From contig NZ_JAKNQJ010000001.1 in assembly GCF_022662335.1 (NCBI RefSeq), forward strand, positions 62,001 through 126,000: a stretch of 64,000 bases of DNA. The letters run 5' to 3'. Below, piece after piece: positions 2,933 to 57,426 of the stretch (its first letter is position 1; the number at the start of each line of letters is the position of its first letter). Origin of the DNA: Sphingomonas sp. CROZ-RG-20F-R02-07. GTDB taxonomy: Bacteria; Pseudomonadota; Alphaproteobacteria; Sphingomonadales; Sphingomonadaceae. Both the position numbers and the translations under genes were made by a program. A model generated the notes under the pieces. That model was not told where the DNA came from. It made no database searches and saw only the letters and a list, made by a program, of their open reading frames with translations.

Positions 2933-3529
2933 TTATGCGGGCCGGTCGGCGAGGCACGGGATCTGCGGTGCGGCGTCGCGCGGCAGCGTGCCCGACAGGC
3001 GAGGATCGGGGAACGTCTCCATGGTGCGTGACGTCGCGGTGAAGCCCTGTGCGCGGTAGAAGCCGAGTGCCGACGGATGGTCGAGCGTGCAGGTGCACAC
3101 CGACAACCGCGTCACGCCCGGCGCCCAGGCGCGGGCGAGCGTCTCCGCCATCATCCAACGGCCATGGCCCTGGCCCGCCAGTTCGGGCACGAGCCCGAAA
3201 TAGGCGAGCCTGACCTCGCCCGGCTGGCGGTGATCGAGTTCGACCATCCCCACCTCGATCCCGCGCGGATCGACCGCCGCGAAGACCTGCACGCCGGGGT
3301 CCGCGAGAATGGCGGCGAGATCGGCATCCGCCATCACCAGCCGCGAATACCAGAGCCAGGGCGAGCCCACCTGCGCGAACAGCATGCGATAGCGGGCGAG
3401 CGTCGGCTCGGCCCAGCGCACCAGCCGCAACGGCGAGGGTGGGACGGGGCGCAGCGGCGGCCGCCGCGTCATCTCCAGCGTGGTGACGATCGTGGCGAGA
3501 TCGCCGTTCGGTACCGCGATCAGTCCCAT
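2933..3529 (-). CDS. GNAT family N-acetyltransferase
   Basis: 198 residues. The GNAT acetyl-CoA pyrophosphate loop appears as VPELAGQGHGRWMM (Q/R-x-x-G-x-G/A type) after a β-strand LAYFGLV. The C-terminal part holds the usual helix-strand HPSALGFYRAQGF. The acceptor substrate cannot be told from the sequence. The start overlaps the 3' end of hemF by 10 bp, so it is probably co-transcribed with and coupled to hemF. A link to haem metabolism is inferred from position only. Confidence 0.8.
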   Translation of the reverse strand: MGLIAVPNGDLATIVTTLEMTRRPPLRPVPPSPLRLVRWAEPTLARYRMLFAQVGSPWLWYSRLVMADADLAAILADPGVQVFAAVDPRGIEVGMVELDHRQPGEVRLAYFGLVPELAGQGHGRWMMAETLARAWAPGVTRLSVCTCTLDHPSALGFYRAQGFTATSRTMETFPDPRLSGTLPRDAAPQIPCLADRPA

Positions 3530-4362
3530 GTCGCCACCGGCGGCAAGCTCATCAGGATCGCATCGATATTGCCGCCGGTCTTCAGCCCGAAGAGCGTGCC
3601 GCGATCATAGACGAGGTTGAATTCGGCATAACGCCCCCGCCATGCGCGCATCGCCGCCACATCGGCAGCGTCGAACGGCGCGTCCATCCGCGCCCGCACG
3701 ATCGCAGGATAGGCCGACAGGAAGGCCAGCCCGACGTCGCGCACGAACGCGAAATCGGCGTCGAAGTCGCTCTCCAGATGATCGAAGAAGATTCCGCCGA
3801 CGCCGCGGTGTACCTGCCGGTGTGGGATGTAGAAATACTCGTCGGCCCAGGCTTTGAAGCGCGGATAATAGGCCGGATCATGCGCGTCGCACGCCTCGCG
3901 CATTGCCGCGTGGAAGGCGACCGTGTCGTCGGCGATCGGCAGCGGCGGATTGAGGTCCGCGCCGCCGCCGAACCAGCGTTTGGTGGTGGCGAGGAAGCGG
4001 CAGTTCATGTGCACCGCGGGAACGTGCGGATTGGCCATGTGCGCGACGAGGCTGATCCCGGTGGCGGCGAATTGCGGATGCTCGCCGGCGCCGTGGATCG
4101 ACTTGGCGAAGTCGCCCTCGAACGTGCCGCCGACGGTCGAGACGTTGACGCCCACCTTCTCGAACACCCGGCCCTTCATCACCCCGCGCACGCCGCCGCC
4201 GCCCGGCGCACCGCTCGGGTCCGCGCGGTCCCAGGGCGTGTAGGCGAAGGCGGCGTCCGATCCCGCCTCGCGCTCGATCGCCTCGAATTCGGCGCAGATG
4301 CGGTCGCGCAGGGTTTCGAACCAGGCGCGGGCGGCGGTTTGCTGGGGGTCGGGCGGTGGCAT
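3520..4362 (-). CDS. hemF: Oxygen-dependent coproporphyrinogen III oxidase
   Basis: 280 residues from ATG 4362 (MPPPDPQQTAARAW). An upstream in-frame ATG at 4428 would add 22 residues without family character. HemF decarboxylates coproporphyrinogen III to protoporphyrinogen IX using O2. Family motifs seen: GGGGVRGVMKGRVFEKVGVN, WFGGGADLNPP, the HRGVGGIFFDHL segment, and the C-terminal YAEFNLVYDRGTLFGLKTGG. Conserved histidines lie in VHMNCRF, FYIPHRQ and DPAYY-adjacent segments. Length and motifs are complete. It is first in an apparent two-gene operon with the acetyltransferase. Confidence 0.95.
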   Translation of the reverse strand: MPPPDPQQTAARAWFETLRDRICAEFEAIEREAGSDAAFAYTPWDRADPSGAPGGGGVRGVMKGRVFEKVGVNVSTVGGTFEGDFAKSIHGAGEHPQFAATGISLVAHMANPHVPAVHMNCRFLATTKRWFGGGADLNPPLPIADDTVAFHAAMREACDAHDPAYYPRFKAWADEYFYIPHRQVHRGVGGIFFDHLESDFDADFAFVRDVGLAFLSAYPAIVRARMDAPFDAADVAAMRAWRGRYAEFNLVYDRGTLFGLKTGGNIDAILMSLPPVATWD

Positions 4363-5739: not shown

Positions 5740-7023
5740 ATGAGCTTTTCCTGGGCCAAGCATTACGAGCCGAAGCAGCCGCTGATGCGGTGGCTCGACG
5801 AGAAGCTGCCGATCCCGCGGCTTGCCTATAACGCCGTGGGCGCGGGCTATCCGGTGCCGCGCAACCTCAACTATTTCTGGAATTTCGGCGTGCTGGCCGG
5901 TGCCGCGCTCGCGGTGCAGATCGTCACGGGCATCGTGCTCGCCATGCATTATGCCGCCAATGCCGGTGTCGCCTTCGACAGCGTCGAGGGCATCATGCGC
6001 GACGTGAACGCCGGCTGGTTCCTGCGCTATGCGCACGCGAACGGCGCGTCGATGTTCTTCATCGTGGTCTATACGCACATCTTCCGCGGGCTGTATTACG
6101 GGTCGTACAAGGCGCCGCGCGAGATGGTGTGGCTGCTGGGCGTCACGATCTTCCTGCTGATGATGGCCACCGCCTTCATGGGCTATGTGCTGCCCTGGGG
6201 GCAGATGAGCTTCTGGGGGGCGCAGGTCATCACCGGCTTCTTCTCGGCGATACCGCTGGTGGGCGAGACGATCCGGGTGTGGCTGCTGGGCGGCTATGCG
6301 CCCGACAATGCCGCGCTCAACCGCTTCTTCTCGCTCCACTATCTGCTGCCGTTCGTGATCGCGGCGGTGATCGTGCTGCACATTTGGGCGCTGCACATCC
6401 CGGGGTCGAACAACCCGACTGGCGTCGACGTGAAGGGGCCGCAGGATACCGTGCCCTTTCACCCCTATTACACCGCCAAGGACGGCGTCGGTGTCGGCGT
6501 GTTCTTCCTGGTGTTCGCCGCGCTGGTGTTCTTCTTCCCGAACCTGCTCGGCCATCCGGACAATTACATCCCGGCCAATCCGCTTTCGACGCCCGCGCAT
6601 ATCGTGCCCGAATGGTATTTCTGGCCCTTCTACGCGATCCTGCGCTCGTTCACCGCGGATTTCATCCTGCCGGCGAAGCTCTGGGGCGTGCTGGCGATGT
6701 TCGGTTCGATCCTGCTGCTGTTCTTCCTGCCCTGGCTCGACTCGTCGCCGGTGCGCTCGAACAACTATCGGCCCAAGGCACGGATCGCCTTCTGGGTGCT
6801 GGTGGTCGACGTGTTGTGCCTCGGCTGGGTCGGCGGCGCGGAGGCATCGCCCGGCTACATCATGCTCGGGCAGATCAGCGCGGCCTATTATTTCGCGCAT
6901 TTTCTGATCGTGCTGCCGATCATCTCGCGTTCGGAGCGGCCCCGGCTGCTGCCCAATTCGATCACCGAAGCCGTGCTGGAAAAGCATGGCGGCACCAGCC
7001 CTGCCAAGACGGCGCTGGCGTAA
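5740..7023 (+). CDS. petB: Cytochrome b subunit of the bc1 complex
   Basis: 427 residues with about eight or nine hydrophobic segments. Seen: the [13 protein letters not shown] helix, haem-ligand histidines in LAMHYAAN and [10 protein letters not shown], and a second pair in [10 protein letters not shown] and [11 protein letters not shown]. The Qo-site PEWY motif is present ([16 protein letters not shown]), as is the [14 protein letters not shown] helix. Cytochrome b carries both haems b and both quinone sites of complex III. Length is normal for the fused bacterial form. It lies 31 bp before petC in the same operon. Confidence 0.97.
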
Positions 7024-15184: not shown

Positions 15185-16048
15185 GTGACCGCACTTTCCT
15201 TCCAGCGCATGATCCTCACGCTCCATGATTACTGGAGCGATCGCGGCTGCCTCATCCTCCAGCCCTATGACATGGAGATGGGCGCCGGCACCTTCCACAC
15301 CGCGACGACGCTGCGCGCGCTGGGGCCCAGGCCCTGGAACGCCGCCTTCGTCCAGCCGTGCCGCCGCCCGACCGATGGCCGCTACGGCGAGAACCCCAAC
15401 CGGCTGCAGCATTATTACCAATATCAGGTGATCCTGAAGCCGAGCCCGGCCGACCTTCAGGACCTGTATCTCGGCAGTCTCGCCGCGATCGGGATCGATC
15501 CGCTCGTCCACGACATCCGCTTCGTGGAGGATGATTGGGAAAGCCCGACGCTCGGCGCATGGGGGCTCGGCTGGGAGGTCTGGTGCGACGGGATGGAGGT
15601 GACCCAGTTCACCTATTTCCAGCAGATGGGCGGCTACGACATGAAGCCCGTCGCGGGCGAGCTGACCTATGGGCTCGAACGTCTCGCCATGTACGTGCAG
15701 GACGTCGACAACGTGTACGACCTGGCGTTCAACGATGCGGGCGTCACCTACGGCGATGTGTTTCTCGAGAATGAGCGCGAGATGTCGACCTGGAATTTCG
15801 AGGTGGCCGACACCGATTCGCTGTTCGACAGCTTCCGCAAGCATGTCGCCGAATGCGAGAATTCGCTGAACGCGAAGCTGCCGATCCCCGCCTATGAACA
15901 GGCGATCAAGGCGAGCCACGTGTTCAACCTGTTGCAGGCGCGCGGGGTGATATCGGTCGCCGAGCGCCAGGCCTATATGGGCCGCGTCCGCGATCTGGCG
16001 AAGGGCGCGTGCGGCGCCTGGATGGACAAGAACGGATGGGCGGCGTGA
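15185..16048 (+). CDS. glyQ: Glycyl-tRNA synthetase alpha subunit
   Basis: 287 residues from GTG 15185 ([17 protein letters not shown]). The family needs the helix before LILTL, so this start is preferred over ATG 15209. Class II catalytic features: [33 protein letters not shown] (motif 2), [10 protein letters not shown], and [12 protein letters not shown] / [13 protein letters not shown] (motif 3). With GlyS it charges tRNA-Gly as an α2β2 enzyme. Its stop overlaps the start of glyS. Confidence 0.96.
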
Positions 16049-18294
16049 GCGACTTCCTTCTCGAACTCCGCTCCGAGGAAATCCCCGCGCGCATGCAGGC
16101 CAAGGCGCGCGAGGATCTCGCGCGGCTGTTCGCGGCGGAGATGGCGCGCGCGGGCGTCGCGACCGGCGCGATCGTCACCTATGCCACGCCGCGGCGCCTC
16201 GCGCTCATCGCGCGCGATCTGCCGCTGGAGACCGCCGCCACCTCGGAAGAGGTGAAGGGGCCCAAGACGTCCGCGCCGCCGCAGGCGCTCGAGGGTTTCC
16301 TGCGCAAGACCGGCCTGGCGCGCGAGCAACTGGTCGAGCGTGACGGCGTTTTCTTCGCCGTGACTCACAAGCCCGGCCGCGCGACCGCCGACGTGCTCGC
16401 CGAGGCGATCCCCGCCATCGTCCGCGGCTTTCCCTGGCCCAAGTCGATGCGCTGGGGCGATGCCTCGCGGTCGACCGAGTCGCTGCGCTGGGTGCGGCCG
16501 TTGCAGGGCATCGTCGCGCTGCTCGGCGAGGAATTGGTGCCCGTCGGGATCGCCGGGATCGCGGCGCGGGCCGCGACACTCGGCCACCGCTTCCACCATC
16601 CCTACCAGATCACGATCGGCGGTGCGCACGACTATGTCGAGAAGCTGCGCGCCTGCCATGTGATCGTCGATCAGGACGAACGCGCCCGTGTGATCCGCGA
16701 CGGCTCGCGCGCGGCGGCGAGCGCGGCGGGGCTGGTGCTGGTGGAGGACGAGGGGCTCGTCGCCGAGAATGCGGGGCTGACCGAATATCCGGTGCCGCTG
16801 CTCGGCCGCTTCGATCCCGCGTTTCTCGACGTGCCGCCCGAGGTGATCCAGCTCACCGCGCGCGTGAACCAGAAATATTTCGTCTGCCGCACCCCGGATG
16901 GCGTGCTGGCGAACGCCTTCGTCTGCACCGCCAACATCGCCGCGGCGGACGGCGGCGCACGCATCGTCGAGGGCAACCGCAAGGTACTCGCCGCGCGGCT
17001 GGCGGATGCGAAGTTCTTCTACGACACCGACTTGAAGGTGCCGCTCGATGCGCAGGCGGCCAAGCTCGGCAAGATCGTCTTTCACGAAAAGCTCGGCACC
17101 GTGGCCGATAAGGTGGACCGTGTGGCGAAGCTCGCGCGCTGGCTGGTCGAGGCGGGGATCGTTCGCGAGACTTTCTCTTCTGCGCTCCCCGGCGAAGGCC
17201 GGGGAACGAAGGGATTGGCGGATCTCGCCGAACGCGCGGCGCGGTTGGCGAAGGCGGATCTCGTCACCGGGATGGTCGGCGAATTCCCCGAGCTCCAGGG
17301 GCTGATGGGCGGCTATTATGCCGCCGCGCAGGGCGAAGATCCGCAGGTCGCCGCAGCGGTGCGCGACCATTACAAGCCGGTGGGGCAGGGCGACGACGTG
17401 CCCGACGCGCCAGTGACGGTGGCGGTCAGCCTGGCCGACAAGCTCGACACGCTGCTCGCCTTCTTCGCGATCAACGAGGCGCCGACGGGATCGAAGGATC
17501 CGTTCGCGCTGCGCCGCGCGGCGCTCGGATTGCTGGCCCTGATCCTGAAGCACGATCTGCGGCTGCCGATGGGGCTGATGATCGAACAGGCTGGCGGCAG
17601 CGTCATCCGTCAGCTCGGCCAGCGCGTGGCGGGCAAGGCGGTGTCGGAAGACATGGCGGCGGCGAACCGGATCGGCGTCGCGCGCGAATCGCTGCTCGGT
17701 CCCGATTACGAGCACCGGATTGCGTTCGAGGGCGAGGGCGGCGCGGCGGTGAAGCTGATGGAGGACGGGCTGCCCAAGTTCGAGCCCTTTCTGCTCGAAC
17801 GGCTGAAGGTGCAGCAGCGCGAGGCTGGCGTGCGCCACGACCTGATCGATGCGGTGTTTGCGCTGGGTGGCGAGGACGATCTCGTCCGCCTGCTCGCGCG
17901 CGTCCGTGCGCTCCAGGCGTTCGTCGGCATGACGGACGGCGCCAACCTGCTCGCCGGCTATAAGCGCGCGGCCAATATCCTGAAAAAAGAAGGTTTCGCT
18001 GCGGCAGAGAACGATGCGGGGCAGGCACCGTCCTATGCCCGCGAGCCCGCCGAGGAGGCGCTCGTCGTCGCGCTCGACGCCGCCGCACCGCGCGCCGCGC
18101 GGGCGATCGCGGCGGAGGATTTCGCCGGCGCGATGGCGGCGCTGGCCACGCTTCGCCATCCGATCGACGCGTTCTTCGAGGCGGTGACGGTGAACGATGC
18201 CGATCCGGCGAAGCGCCTGGGCCGTCTGGCCCTGCTCGACCGCGTGCGGCGCGCGGTGCACGACGTTGCCGATTTCTCGCGCATCGAGGGCTGA
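16045..18294 (+). CDS. glyS: Glycyl-tRNA synthetase beta subunit, with in-frame palindromic insert
   Basis: 749 residues if the GTG at 16045 is used, which overlaps the glyQ stop as GTGA and gives the family-type N-terminus [17 protein letters not shown]. An ATG at 16036 is an alternative. Seen: tRNA-recognition N-terminal region, the central HD-like region ([21 protein letters not shown]), and the C-terminal anticodon-binding domain with [20 protein letters not shown]-like segment. Around residues 376-388 the peptide [12 protein letters not shown] is encoded by a perfect hairpin (17187-17204). It belongs to the same repeat family as the copies at 45.1, 47.5 and 55.9 kb. Family members usually have a short surface loop there. 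Confidence 0.95.
17180..17208 (+). repeat. Palindromic repeat family A, single-arm copy inside glyS
   Basis: CCCCGGC, loop GAAG, GCCGGGG: a perfect 7-bp hairpin flanked by CT and AAC, as in the left arms at 47462 and 55934. It is read in frame as PGEGRG. Confidence 0.75.
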
Positions 18295-45082: not shown

Positions 45083-45122
45083 CCCCTGCCGTACCCCGGC
45101 CTTCGCGGGGGAACGGCAGGGG
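45083..45122. repeat. Hairpin of repeat family A after proS
   Basis: A perfect 10-bp outer stem (CCCCTGCCGT at 45083-45092 with ACGGCAGGGG at 45113-45122) encloses a CCCCGGCCTTCGCGGGGG core related to the family A arm. It could also serve as the proS terminator, though no T-run follows. Confidence 0.6.
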
Positions 45123-47461: not shown

Positions 47462-47567
47462 TGTTCCCCGGCGAAGGCCGGAGCCCAGTCGGGCGAGGTT
47501 GGTAATGACGCGCTGTCCCGCATCACCCGGGACGTTCCAACTGGGCCCCGGCCTTCGCCGGGGAACA
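47462..47567. repeat. Palindromic repeat family A, full intergenic copy
   Basis: 106 bp. The left arm starts TGTTCCCCGGCGAAGGCCGG; the right arm ends GGCCTTCGCCGGGGAACA. The arms are near-perfect reverse complements over about 25 bases. It matches the 107-bp element in putA in arms and length; the centres differ. It lies in the 198-bp gap between rnr and the saccharopine-dehydrogenase-like gene, which holds nothing else. Confidence 0.8.
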
Positions 47568-54360: not shown

Positions 54361-57300
54361 ATGGCCACCTCCCTTGTGTCAGACCCTCGCAAGACCATGG
54401 CGTCGCTGTATCGTGCAGCCGAACCCGATGTTCTAAAACCGCTGCTCGAGCGGGCCGCGCTCGACCCTGATTCGCGCGAGCGCGTGATGGGCCATGCGCT
54501 GGGGCTGCTGGCCGATCTGCGTGCCGCGCAGTCCAGGGGATGGGTCAACCAGTTCCTCCAGGAATATCGGCTGAATTCGTCCGAGGGCGTCGCGCTGCTC
54601 AGCCTCGCCGAGGCGTTCCTGCGCGTGCCCGATCCCGAGACCGCGGACCTGTTGATCGCCGACAAGCTGGGCGACGCGGACTGGCGCGCGCATGCGGGGC
54701 GTTCCAATTCGAAGCTCGTCAATTCGGCGACCTGGGGCCTCGTCGTCGGGCGCGTGCTGGTGGGAGAGGGCGCGCAGGGCCCCTTGCCCCGGCTGATCTC
54801 GCGCGCGGGCGAGCCGTTCGTGCGTCAGGCAGTGGGCGCGGCGATGAAGATGATGGGCGAGATCTTCGTGATGGGCCGCACCATCGACGAGGCGATGCGC
54901 CGAATGAAACGCCCGGAAAACAAGGGCTTCACCGCCAGCTTCGACATGCTGGGCGAAGCTGCGCGGACCTATGACGATGCCGATCGCTATTTCCGCGCCT
55001 ATGTCGGCGCGATCGATGCGGTGGGCAGCGATCCGGCGGCAGGCCATTCGGTGTCGGTGAAACTGTCGGCGCTCCACCCGCGCTACGAGGTGGCGCGGTG
55101 GAGCGAATGCGTGCCCGCGCTGACCGGCATGCTGGAGGCGCTGGCGGTGCAGGCCGCCGCCAAGGGGATCGCGCTCACCGTCGATGCGGAGGAATCCGAG
55201 CGGCTGGAGATGAGCCTCGACATCATCGGCGCGGTCGCCGCGCTGCCGGCGCTGAAGGGCTGGGACGGCTTCGGCATGGCGGTGCAGGCCTATGGCAAGC
55301 GCGCGCGGCCGGTGGTCGCCTGGGCCAACGGGCTCGACCGGGTGATGAACGTGCGGCTGGTGAAGGGCGCCTATTGGGACAGCGAGATCAAGCGTACCCA
55401 GGTGGAGGGCCTGGCCGATTATCCGCTGTTCACGCGCAAGGCGGCGACCGACGTGTCGTATCTGGCGGTGGCCAAGGACATGCTGGATGCGGAGAATATC
55501 CGCCCCGCCTTTGCCAGCCACAACGCGCTGACCGTCGCCACGATCATGGAATGGGCGGGCAATTCGCGCGATTTCGAGTTCCAGCGGCTGCACGGCATGG
55601 GTGACGGGCTGTACGAGCGGCTGGTGCGCGAGAATGGCTATCATTGCCGCGTCTATGCCCCGGTCGGCGGGCACCGCGATCTGCTCGCCTATCTCGTCCG
55701 CCGGCTGCTGGAGAATGGCGCCAATTCCAGCTTCGTCCACCAATTGGCCGACGCGCGGCTGACCGAGGCGGAGATCCTCGCCGACCCCGTCGCGCGGATC
55801 GCCGCAGTAGGCGGCCAGCGCCATCCGAGCATCCCGCTGCCGGTGGATCTGTTCGGCGCGGGGCACCGCAATTCGGCGGGGCTCGACCTGAGCGACGTGG
55901 ACACGCTGGCGCGCACGGTGCGCGCGGTGGCGCTGTTCCCCGGCGAAGGCCGGGGCCCGGTCGGGGGCGGGGCGTTGGCGGAGGACGGCGCGTCGTCGCG
56001 GGAGCCTTCCCAACTGGACCCCGGCCTTCGCCGGGGAACAGAAGAGGGGCTGGGAACGGAAGGAGACGTAACCAACGCCATCGCCCGCGCGCACGCGGCG
56101 TTCCCCGCATGGTCCGCCACGCCCGTCGACCAGCGCGCGGCATGTCTCGACCGGCTCGCCGACCTGCTGGAGGCGAATCGCGACGAACTCATGGCGATCT
56201 GCGTGGCGGAGGCGTTCAAGACCCTCCCCGATGCGATCGGCGAGGTGCGCGAGGCCGCCGATTTCTGCCGCTATTATGCGAACGAGGCGCGCACGAAGCT
56301 GCACGCGGTCGAGCTGCCCGGGCCGACGGGCGAGCGCAACACGCTGCATCTGGACGGTCGCGGCGTCTGGGCGACGATCGCGCCGTGGAATTTTCCGCTC
56401 GCGATCTTCCTGGGGCAGACCGTGGCCGCGCTGGTGACGGGCAACAGCGTGGTGGCCAAGCCCGCGCCGCAAACCCCGGAAATCGCGGCCGCCGCGGTGC
56501 GGCTGGCGCACGAAGCGGGCATCCCGCGCGACGTGCTGGTGCTGGTGACCGGAGGCCCCGAGACGGGCGCTGCGCTCACCCGCGATCCGCGGATCATGGG
56601 TGTGGCGTTCACCGGCTCCACCGCGACCGCGCGCCGGATCGCACGCACGCTGCTGGAGGACGATGCCCGGCCGATCGTGCCGCTGATCGCGGAGACGGGC
56701 GGGATCAACGCGATGATCGTCGATTCCACCGCGCTGCCCGAACAGGTGGTGGCGGACGTGATCGCGTCGTCGTTCCGCTCGGCGGGGCAGCGTTGTTCGG
56801 CGCTGCGGCTGCTGCTGGTGCAGGAGGATGTGGCGGACGGCGTGATCCGGATGCTGGGCGGCGCGATGGACACGCTGCGGCTGGGCGCCCCCGGCGATCC
56901 CGCGACCGATGTCGGCCCGGTGATCGACCGCGCCGCCTATGACCGGCTGATGGCCTATCGCGAATCGGTGCGCGACCGCTGGATCAAGACGCTCGACGCG
57001 CCCGCCGACGGGCTGTTCGTGCCGCCGACGCTGATCCGGCTCGACGCCGTGGAGGCGCTCGACCAGGAATGGTTCGGACCGCTGCTCCATGTCGCGACGT
57101 GGAAGGCGGGCGCGTTGTCCGAGACGATCGCGCGCGTGAACGCCAAGGGATACGGCCTCACCATGGGCCTGCACAGCCGCATCGCGCGCGCCGCCGAACT
57201 GGCCGAGGCCGAGGCGGCGGTGGGCAATCTGTACATCAACCGCTCGATGATCGGCGCGGTGGTCGGATCGCAGCCCTTCGGCGGCGAGGGGCTGTCGGGC

Positions 57301-57426
57301 ACCGGGCCCAAGGCGGGCGGCCCGCATTACCTGTTCCGCTTCGTCTCCGAACGCGCGGTGTCGGTCGATACGACCAGCGCGGGCGGCAACGCGACCTTGC
57401 TCAGCCTGGACGAAGGGGGGATCTGA
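54361..57426 (+). CDS. putA: Bifunctional proline dehydrogenase / L-glutamate gamma-semialdehyde dehydrogenase, with in-frame palindromic insert
   Basis: 1021 residues: type A PutA, without the N-terminal ribbon-helix-helix repressor domain. It oxidises proline to glutamate in two steps. The FAD-dependent PRODH barrel covers about 50-505 (VSVKLSALHPRYE, VDAEESERLEMSLDII, YGKRARPVVAW, MNVRLVKGAYWD, ASHNALTVATIM). The ALDH domain covers about 570-1000, with NAD-site IAPWNFPLAIFLGQ, VVAKPAPQTPEIAAAAV, FTGSTATAR and catalytic cysteine C812 in SAGQRCSALRL. Residues about 525-560 are encoded by a 107-bp palindromic repeat (55934-56040) placed where the first ALDH strands would be expected. Confidence 0.95.
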   Translation: MATSLVSDPRKTMASLYRAAEPDVLKPLLERAALDPDSRERVMGHALGLLADLRAAQSRGWVNQFLQEYRLNSSEGVALLSLAEAFLRVPDPETADLLIADKLGDADWRAHAGRSNSKLVNSATWGLVVGRVLVGEGAQGPLPRLISRAGEPFVRQAVGAAMKMMGEIFVMGRTIDEAMRRMKRPENKGFTASFDMLGEAARTYDDADRYFRAYVGAIDAVGSDPAAGHSVSVKLSALHPRYEVARWSECVPALTGMLEALAVQAAAKGIALTVDAEESERLEMSLDIIGAVAALPALKGWDGFGMAVQAYGKRARPVVAWANGLDRVMNVRLVKGAYWDSEIKRTQVEGLADYPLFTRKAATDVSYLAVAKDMLDAENIRPAFASHNALTVATIMEWAGNSRDFEFQRLHGMGDGLYERLVRENGYHCRVYAPVGGHRDLLAYLVRRLLENGANSSFVHQLADARLTEAEILADPVARIAAVGGQRHPSIPLPVDLFGAGHRNSAGLDLSDVDTLARTVRAVALFPGEGRGPVGGGALAEDGASSREPSQLDPGLRRGTEEGLGTEGDVTNAIARAHAAFPAWSATPVDQRAACLDRLADLLEANRDELMAICVAEAFKTLPDAIGEVREAADFCRYYANEARTKLHAVELPGPTGERNTLHLDGRGVWATIAPWNFPLAIFLGQTVAALVTGNSVVAKPAPQTPEIAAAAVRLAHEAGIPRDVLVLVTGGPETGAALTRDPRIMGVAFTGSTATARRIARTLLEDDARPIVPLIAETGGINAMIVDSTALPEQVVADVIASSFRSAGQRCSALRLLLVQEDVADGVIRMLGGAMDTLRLGAPGDPATDVGPVIDRAAYDRLMAYRESVRDRWIKTLDAPADGLFVPPTLIRLDAVEALDQEWFGPLLHVATWKAGALSETIARVNAKGYGLTMGLHSRIARAAELAEAEAAVGNLYINRSMIGAVVGSQPFGGEGLSGTGPKAGGPHYLFRFVSERAVSVDTTSAGGNATLLSLDEGGI
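55934..56040. repeat. Palindromic repeat family A, full copy inside putA
   Basis: 107 bp, with 24-25-nt arms (TGTTCCCCGGCGAAGGCCGG and its complement ending CGCCGGGGAACA) and a centre unlike the 47.5-kb copy. It is translated in frame as ALFPGEGRGPVG at the left arm and LDPGLRRGTEE at the right arm. The reading frame of the left arm is the same as in glyS. Confidence 0.8.

Follow-up and report, generated by a model that had tools for sequence, protein, structure and literature searches.

A repeated palindrome read in frame within putA of a Sphingomonas genome, at a linker filled by unrelated repeat families in relatives

The putA gene of Sphingomonas sp. CROZ-RG-20F-R02-07 contains a palindromic element that belongs to a multi-copy family and lies in frame at the junction between the proline dehydrogenase (PRODH) and aldehyde dehydrogenase (ALDH) domains. 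The element is absent from relatives, palindromes of unrelated families are found at the same junction, and the occupant of that junction changes frequently. We think it quite probable that the putA element is a mobile palindrome, akin to REP doublets and to Rickettsia palindromic elements (RPEs), that is tolerated in an unstructured linker. In-frame palindromes are in themselves a kind already known, as RPEs in Rickettsia (passages of PMC10969869) and as REPs inside genes of some REP-rich genomes (passages of PMC3733652). What seems new here is that unrelated families come repeatedly to one linker and switch between near-identical orthologues.

An in-frame palindrome at the domain junction of PutA

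The window, a stretch of 64,000 nucleotides of contig NZ_JAKNQJ010000001.1, contains the following features:

54361..57426, + strand: putA, bifunctional proline dehydrogenase / glutamate semialdehyde dehydrogenase (1021 aa; open reading frame, Pfam, NCBIfam)
55933..56041, no strand: family-A palindromic element, read in frame in putA (inverted repeat and genome-wide family)
47462..47567, no strand: intergenic family-A twin (arms 47462-47492 and 47537-47567, 31 nt, 94%)
45096..45113, - strand: solo family-A arm (1 mismatch)
17185..17202, + strand: solo family-A hairpin in glyS beta (1 mismatch, one frame on both sides)

The putA product matches PF18327, PF14850, PF01619 and PF00171, with Pro_dh at residues 178-461 and Aldedh starting at 565, and scores 1320.7 bits against the NCBIfam equivalog PRK11904.1 (cut-off 747) over residues 7-1017. 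The arms of its element (55933-55965 and 56009-56041) are 33 nt each, 91% complementary and separated by a spacer of 43 nt; the element codes for residues ~526-560, the peptide FPGEGRGPVGGGALAEDGASSREPSQLDPGLRRGT. The reading frame has no stop inside it, and coding scores favour one frame on both flanks. The predicted RNA fold of this copy (-89.6 kcal/mol, z -6.5) is equalled by none of 200 shuffles. The first-pass annotation had described, at the PRODH/ALDH junction, a repeated palindrome that is part of the reading frame, and both the open frame and the genome-wide recurrence of the arm bear this out. Its arms of 24-25 nt are indeed shared with the intergenic twin, but represent only the best-matching part of longer arms, of 33 and 31 nt. 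An Rfam scan of the window gave no match at the element; its sole match was a glycine riboswitch aptamer (RF00504, 35252-35369, + strand, 59.2 bits).

Judged by its sequence, the protein looks intact in both catalytic parts, as had been supposed: besides the PRK11904.1 match, an alignment of 31 PutAs has many invariant columns, among them C812 and E778, which we take to be the ALDH catalytic residues. An alternative that makes putA a pseudogene, with the insertion as a sign of decay, is thus very improbable, given 1021 open codons, coding composition on both sides of the element and similarity to the PutA model over the whole length. Junctions whose length is not divisible by 3 do occur in three relatives (L168, L169 and L176), which would fit decay; however, the L176 junction contains Ns, and the deletion in L168, a close relative of L033, falls in a run of G, a usual place for sequencing errors. 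In L169 (S. albertensis) a B element (see below) is reduced to one hairpin, leaving a junction of 22 nt and a lost frame, either because the assembly collapsed the palindrome or because of a true deletion.

An AlphaFold2 model of PutA, built on the 31-row alignment, gives residues 529-565 a pLDDT below 50, between helices at 513-525 and 567-586. The model is moderate overall (mean pLDDT 72.7, pTM 0.67), since other stretches are also low in pLDDT; it predicts that the element peptide lies in a disordered stretch between the two domains. It had been proposed that the repeat replaced the NPA..VG hairpin with which the ALDH domain usually begins. By eye, the long-type PutAs L090-L092 have this hairpin and so does a Beijerinckiaceae PutA (L178), in the form SPIDARSVG; it is not recognised in short-type sphingomonad junctions, whether they hold an element or not. 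A replacement of the hairpin by the repeat is therefore not supported; we infer that it probably extended a linker from which the hairpin had already been lost.

Family A across the genome

An 18-nt arm core occurs seven times in the window at up to 3 mismatches, where 0.31 matches are expected and none of 100 shuffles reaches seven. Over the whole genome (3.90 Mb, 63 contigs) it has 58 matches at up to 1 mismatch, against 0 for a backwards control. The 39 sites of our family-A set, taken from the window and from 29 stretches around genome matches, comprise 30 inward-facing arm pairs, 8 solo arms and 1 reversed pair. Paired copies are 63-104 nt long, the commonest length being 102 nt (11/30), and the consensus of 23 full-length copies forms one near-perfect palindrome of ~106 nt.

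Several copies lie outside clear coding DNA. Three stand in probable operons: between an atpA-like gene and the gene for ATP synthase gamma (L204 2930-2992), between a glgC-like gene and starch synthase (L207 2953-3054), and between an E2 acyltransferase and an lpd-like gene (L210 4885-4986), the '-like' names being read from sequence. Solo hairpins are found at L203 3017-3034, L203 5199-5216 and L191 3009-3026; these are perhaps remnants of doublets that lost their middle. The intergenic twin sits downstream of an rnr-like gene, likewise named from its sequence. Among the 14 genomes searched for this region, including the window's own, nine relatives have both flanks in one locus, and motifs of families A, B, C, D and F (defined below) are absent from their orthologous intergenic region; as this region differs in the relatives, it provides no clean empty site. 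In one genome, G093, the corresponding region downstream of the rnr-like gene (L305 / L321) holds a different palindrome, starting TTTCCCCGCGAAGGCGGGGACCCAG.

Family-A copies inside genes

When each upstream coding frame was traced into the element at all 39 sites, it met a stop inside the element at none of them (0/39). At 6 of the 39 the copy lies in frame within coding sequence: in putA, in the genes for a Sua5/TsaC-type threonylcarbamoyl-AMP synthase (Sua5), NAD(P)H-hydrate epimerase/dehydratase (nnr) and an E2 acyltransferase, and in fmt; glyS beta (stop-to-stop reading frame 15898-18291; Pfam tRNA_synt_2f at 53-654) holds the sixth, a solo hairpin. Three of the five paired genic copies fall between Pfam domains, namely those of putA (461|565), Sua5 (one match ending at 197, the next resuming at 241) and E2 (lipoyl domain to 79, E3-binding domain from 167). 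The other two lie within domains, YjeF_N for the epimerase and Formyl_trans_C for fmt (L188 6101-6177, reading frame 5940-6974 on the - strand, 3 kb from the epimerase copy), and linkers are therefore not the sole targets. The likeness to RPEs drawn in the first-pass annotation is well founded in this respect: palindromes sit in frame in genes unrelated to one another, much as in Rickettsia.

At two further sites an in-frame copy runs through the 3' end of a reading frame. One is an Rrf2-type regulator (Pfam Rrf2; L200, element 2969-3044, reading frame 2955-3641 on the - strand), with the stop 4 codons past the element; the other, in L209, is a reading frame without Pfam match, with the stop 41 codons past it. 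The L200 copy provides the final ~30 residues of the regulator, a possible C-terminal fusion. A ninth and weak case is a single arm at the end of a reading frame in L185, read in frame c. The L211 site scored the same frame on both sides, yet is located between two genes. Same-strand coding flanks in different frames were scored at 6 sites, of which five are boundaries between genes and the sixth is L200; the solo arm at 45096-45113 is no clean in-frame case, because the coding frames scored on its two sides differ.

The paired genic copies use frame a or b. Among 26 paired copies then classed as intergenic, a set that included the fmt copy and both 3'-end cases, the Arg-rich frame c (VPRRRPG) is the one most often open (42/52; a and b are open in 33 and 28). 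The contrast between the genic frames and frame c is only suggestive.

Unrelated families at the putA junction of relatives

A search with the PutA protein gave a match in 101/101 genomes of the genus, in some of them only to other aldehyde dehydrogenases or to a long-type PutA. The junction was read in 59 of the 62 loci L031-L092 (L086, L087 and L089 having no anchor) and in 80 named loci (L103-L182). Counting identical junctions once, this yields 117 distinct junctions, of which 103 are short-type. Palindrome-free rows L059-L085 hold 9-13 residues where this PutA has 43, and no segment homologous to the 36 residues that the first reading had ascribed to the element was seen in them. Four deeper rows (L054, L056-L058) have palindrome-free stretches of 36-40 residues, which by eye do not resemble the element peptide.

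Palindromes at this junction belong to unrelated families: A CCCCGGCGAAGGCCGGGG, B CCCTCCCGCnnGCGGGAGGG, C CGTTCGTnTCGAGCGnAGTCGAGA and D CCCCTTCAGGGGAGGGG, with one further family (label E) in L040. A motif of A-D is present in 36/103 distinct short-type junctions (A 10, B 15, C 8, D 3); these labels depend on motif thresholds, 14 of the 36 junctions show fewer than two full arms, and three labels were set by hand (L040 as E, L132 as D, L107 as none). Among cultured species, S. jinjuensis carries A and Sphingomonas aerolata a divergent A. Families A, B, C, D and F, the last found in the E2 linker, recur genome-wide in many of the genomes examined. Family-A arms number 64 in this genome (G000), 218 in G061 and 271 in G092. 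Family B has 60-77 copies in six carriers, 23 in a seventh (G082) and 0 in G000; family C has 121 arms in G079, 156 in G010 and fewer (24-31) in G028, G073 and G003; and family D has 59 copies in G031 and 48 in G002. Backwards controls gave 0 matches save 1 in G072 (A) and 1 in G017 (D).

These counts bear on the idea that the palindromes are chance products of ordinary linkers. The genome is GC-rich, Pro/Gly/Ala linkers are of low complexity, and the shuffles used for putA junctions and for other linkers preserve base composition only, all of which leaves some room for chance. Yet 21/59 putA junctions have an inverted repeat that none of 300 such shuffles matches, the arm core of family A contrasts with an empty control, and the copy numbers of families A-D argue against the idea; we find it scarcely credible.

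Turnover at the junction

A tree of 98 PutAs was computed with the junction left out (IQ-TREE quick search, LG+G4, SH-aLRT support only). Seventeen rows were dropped, 14 of them long-type or distant PutAs and 3 with junctions not divisible by 3, as were L085 and L088, which have short ends. On this tree the family label changes at least 24 times (C 8, B 9, A 6, D 3), a change being a gain, a loss or an exchange alike. Family C requires 8 changes for its 8 rows, and still 8 when only the starred branches are trusted. The label differs even between PutAs that are 99.3-99.4% identical (L033 with A; L036, L038 and L121 with B), and L051 (B), L052 (D) and L082 (none) share 98.0-98.4% identity.

Local events are visible at two junctions. 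Compared with L052, L132 has an extra in-frame insert of 60 nt nested in its D element; by eye the insert lies in the first hairpin of D and has two hairpins of its own within the outer stem. In L053, compared with L135, a C element adjoins the apparent start of a B element. Part of the variation may have another origin: the family differences of close species might mostly be recombined putA segments rather than new insertions. A and B each occur in two subclades, the centres of B are similar and the DNA flanking A/B pairs is 91-96% identical, and allele exchange between close species could account for part of the A/B mixing. As a general explanation, homologous exchange is a serious possibility, albeit one we doubt: it fits poorly with the scattered family C, and the nested insert of L132 and the C/B junction of L053 are local events, not allele swaps.

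A comparison of L031, L032 and L033 found 43 arm nucleotides identical, whereas their 600-nt flanks differ by 11.6-17.6% and their centres at 5-14 of 56 positions (Fisher p 0.00057, 0.00057 and 0.011); locating the arms by exact match biases this comparison towards conservation. In L168 the right arm has one substitution and one deletion. Given both points, homogenisation of or constraint on the arms is suggestive, not proven.

The nested insert, the truncated remnant beside a new family and the change of family between 99%-identical orthologues lead us to a tentative idea, against which we would sooner bet: certain protein linkers of sphingomonads may be self-renewing landing pads, in which a resident palindrome draws in or yields to others. 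If so, linker length and sequence would evolve through cassette turnover and not through point mutation.

Linkers of Sua5, E2 and nnr

We surveyed three further sites in 30 genomes taken from the PutA set, calling a palindrome significant when it beat all 200 shuffles (base composition only). The three are not a random sample, because they were picked for carrying an element in this genome. A significant palindrome is found in 24/30 E2 linkers, of several families, in 11/30 Sua5 rows (29 genomes, G050 appearing twice and G019 having no match) and in 8/28 measured rows of the nnr loop (L299 and L301 being left out as they have no anchors). In putA and in the other linkers surveyed, relatives without an element have short linkers. 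Family F (CCCTCTCCCCnnnGGGGAGAGGG), found in E2, is itself repeated, with 75-86 copies in six genomes. Several nnr matches have one internal TGA, and in the four cases that could be placed this TGA is the gene's own stop. Over whole linkers, the frame used was the richest in disorder-favouring residues in 31/33 putA, 14/19 Sua5, 30/30 E2 and 8/10 nnr cases; we give this no weight, because a control from ordinary GC-rich genes is lacking.

Occupancy of the E2 linker is so high that tolerance alone may be insufficient to explain it. Different palindromes could have been recruited for one job, as stem-loops in the mRNA at domain boundaries that slow the ribosome or protect the message. Consistent with this are the position of three of the five paired genic copies between domains, the very stable fold of the putA copy, the identity of the 43 arm nucleotides despite diverged flanks and centres, and the filled E2 linkers. 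Selection for such a hairpin is nevertheless unlikely, since 63/98 PutA rows carry no family, no significant palindrome is found in 19/30 Sua5 rows or in 20/28 measured nnr rows, the nnr and fmt copies lie within a domain, and the arm changes in L168, along with the exact-match location of the arms, weaken the conservation argument.

Relation to known mobile repeats

REPs are short hairpins present in high copy number, often as inverted doublets, mostly intergenic and in some cases inside genes, in sphingomonads too (passages of PMC3733652). Family A resembles REP doublets, or REPINs, in its short hairpin unit, its high copy number (58 arms when 1 mismatch is allowed, none in the control) and its inverted pairs at a near-fixed distance (30/39 sites). 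It differs at the hairpin foot, where no GTAG or CGTC tag is seen and TGTT (22) and CGTT (21) together account for 43/60. It also differs in the mobilising enzyme: the Y1 (RAYT) transposase, PF01797, was not found in this genome, and RAYT was accordingly rejected as mobiliser of family A. PF01797 matches occur in 6/56 genomes and in 5/14 control genomes, E. coli included. Family A shares with MITEs a non-autonomous character, terminal inverted repeats and many copies; unlike them, it has no target-site duplication in 30 paired copies (a direct repeat of at least 3 nt in at most 1/30 at any offset of 0-4 nt per end, counts no better than for shuffled pairs). The search for a transposase source covered PF01797 and identified no parent transposon.

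The same source, as far as its available passages go, names S. wittichii and S. chlorophenolicum as carriers of CGTC REPs and S. alaskensis and E. litoralis as having REPs within genes for tRNA synthetase and truB, and describes different REPs at about the same site in recB of two Xanthomonas species; it proposes that flexible linkers and loops tolerate REPs, and its main text does not name putA. In view of the sphingomonad REPs given there, some of them inside genes, the earlier statement that sphingomonads had no equivalent was too strong. RPEs are multi-copy, ~150 bp long and in frame in unrelated metabolic genes, with several families per genus (passages of PMC10969869). They resemble family A in being read in frame in unrelated genes (putA, Sua5, NAD(P)H-hydrate epimerase, E2, fmt) and differ in host, the likeness being one of description; filling of one linker by unrelated families, as seen here, does not appear in the RPE passages of that paper. 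Enterobacterial RU / ERIC repeats, small and MITE-like, also lie in annotated genes with the reading frame kept (Delihas 2007, PMC2759123), in other hosts; the abstract does not mention a linker that is filled recurrently. Literature searches among open-licence PMC papers turned up none about putA or about one linker being occupied repeatedly.

A proposed history and its meaning

We propose that the ~106-nt palindrome belongs to a non-autonomous, multi-copy mobile repeat built like a REP doublet, whose two head-to-head hairpins could also pair as one long stem. It would have entered the putA linker in an ancestor that this genome had in common with the clade of G061 and G092, as the shared centre suggests, and would have been retained for two reasons: the linker lacks structure, and the frame in use is open and encodes much Pro, Gly, Ala, Ser and Glu. 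Further copies, sometimes of unrelated families, would have reached the putA linkers of other lineages and the linkers or loops of Sua5, E2, NAD(P)H-hydrate epimerase and fmt. Such copies may move by template switching or, in trans, as single strands that fold, would presumably be translated as part of the protein, and may be nearly neutral to selection.

For annotation, strings such as FPGEGRGP.., PLPLAGG.. and PFVSSEVE.. at these positions flag DNA repeats, not conserved protein motifs. More broadly, this group includes many named and cultured species, and in it one linker can be traced over about a hundred distinct junctions, with several families as well as losses and replacements. This makes it testable whether coding palindromes are merely tolerated parasites and whether mobile DNA is a source of protein linkers. 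In sphingomonads, selfish-looking DNA seems to have been turned into protein linker repeatedly, and by unrelated palindromes.
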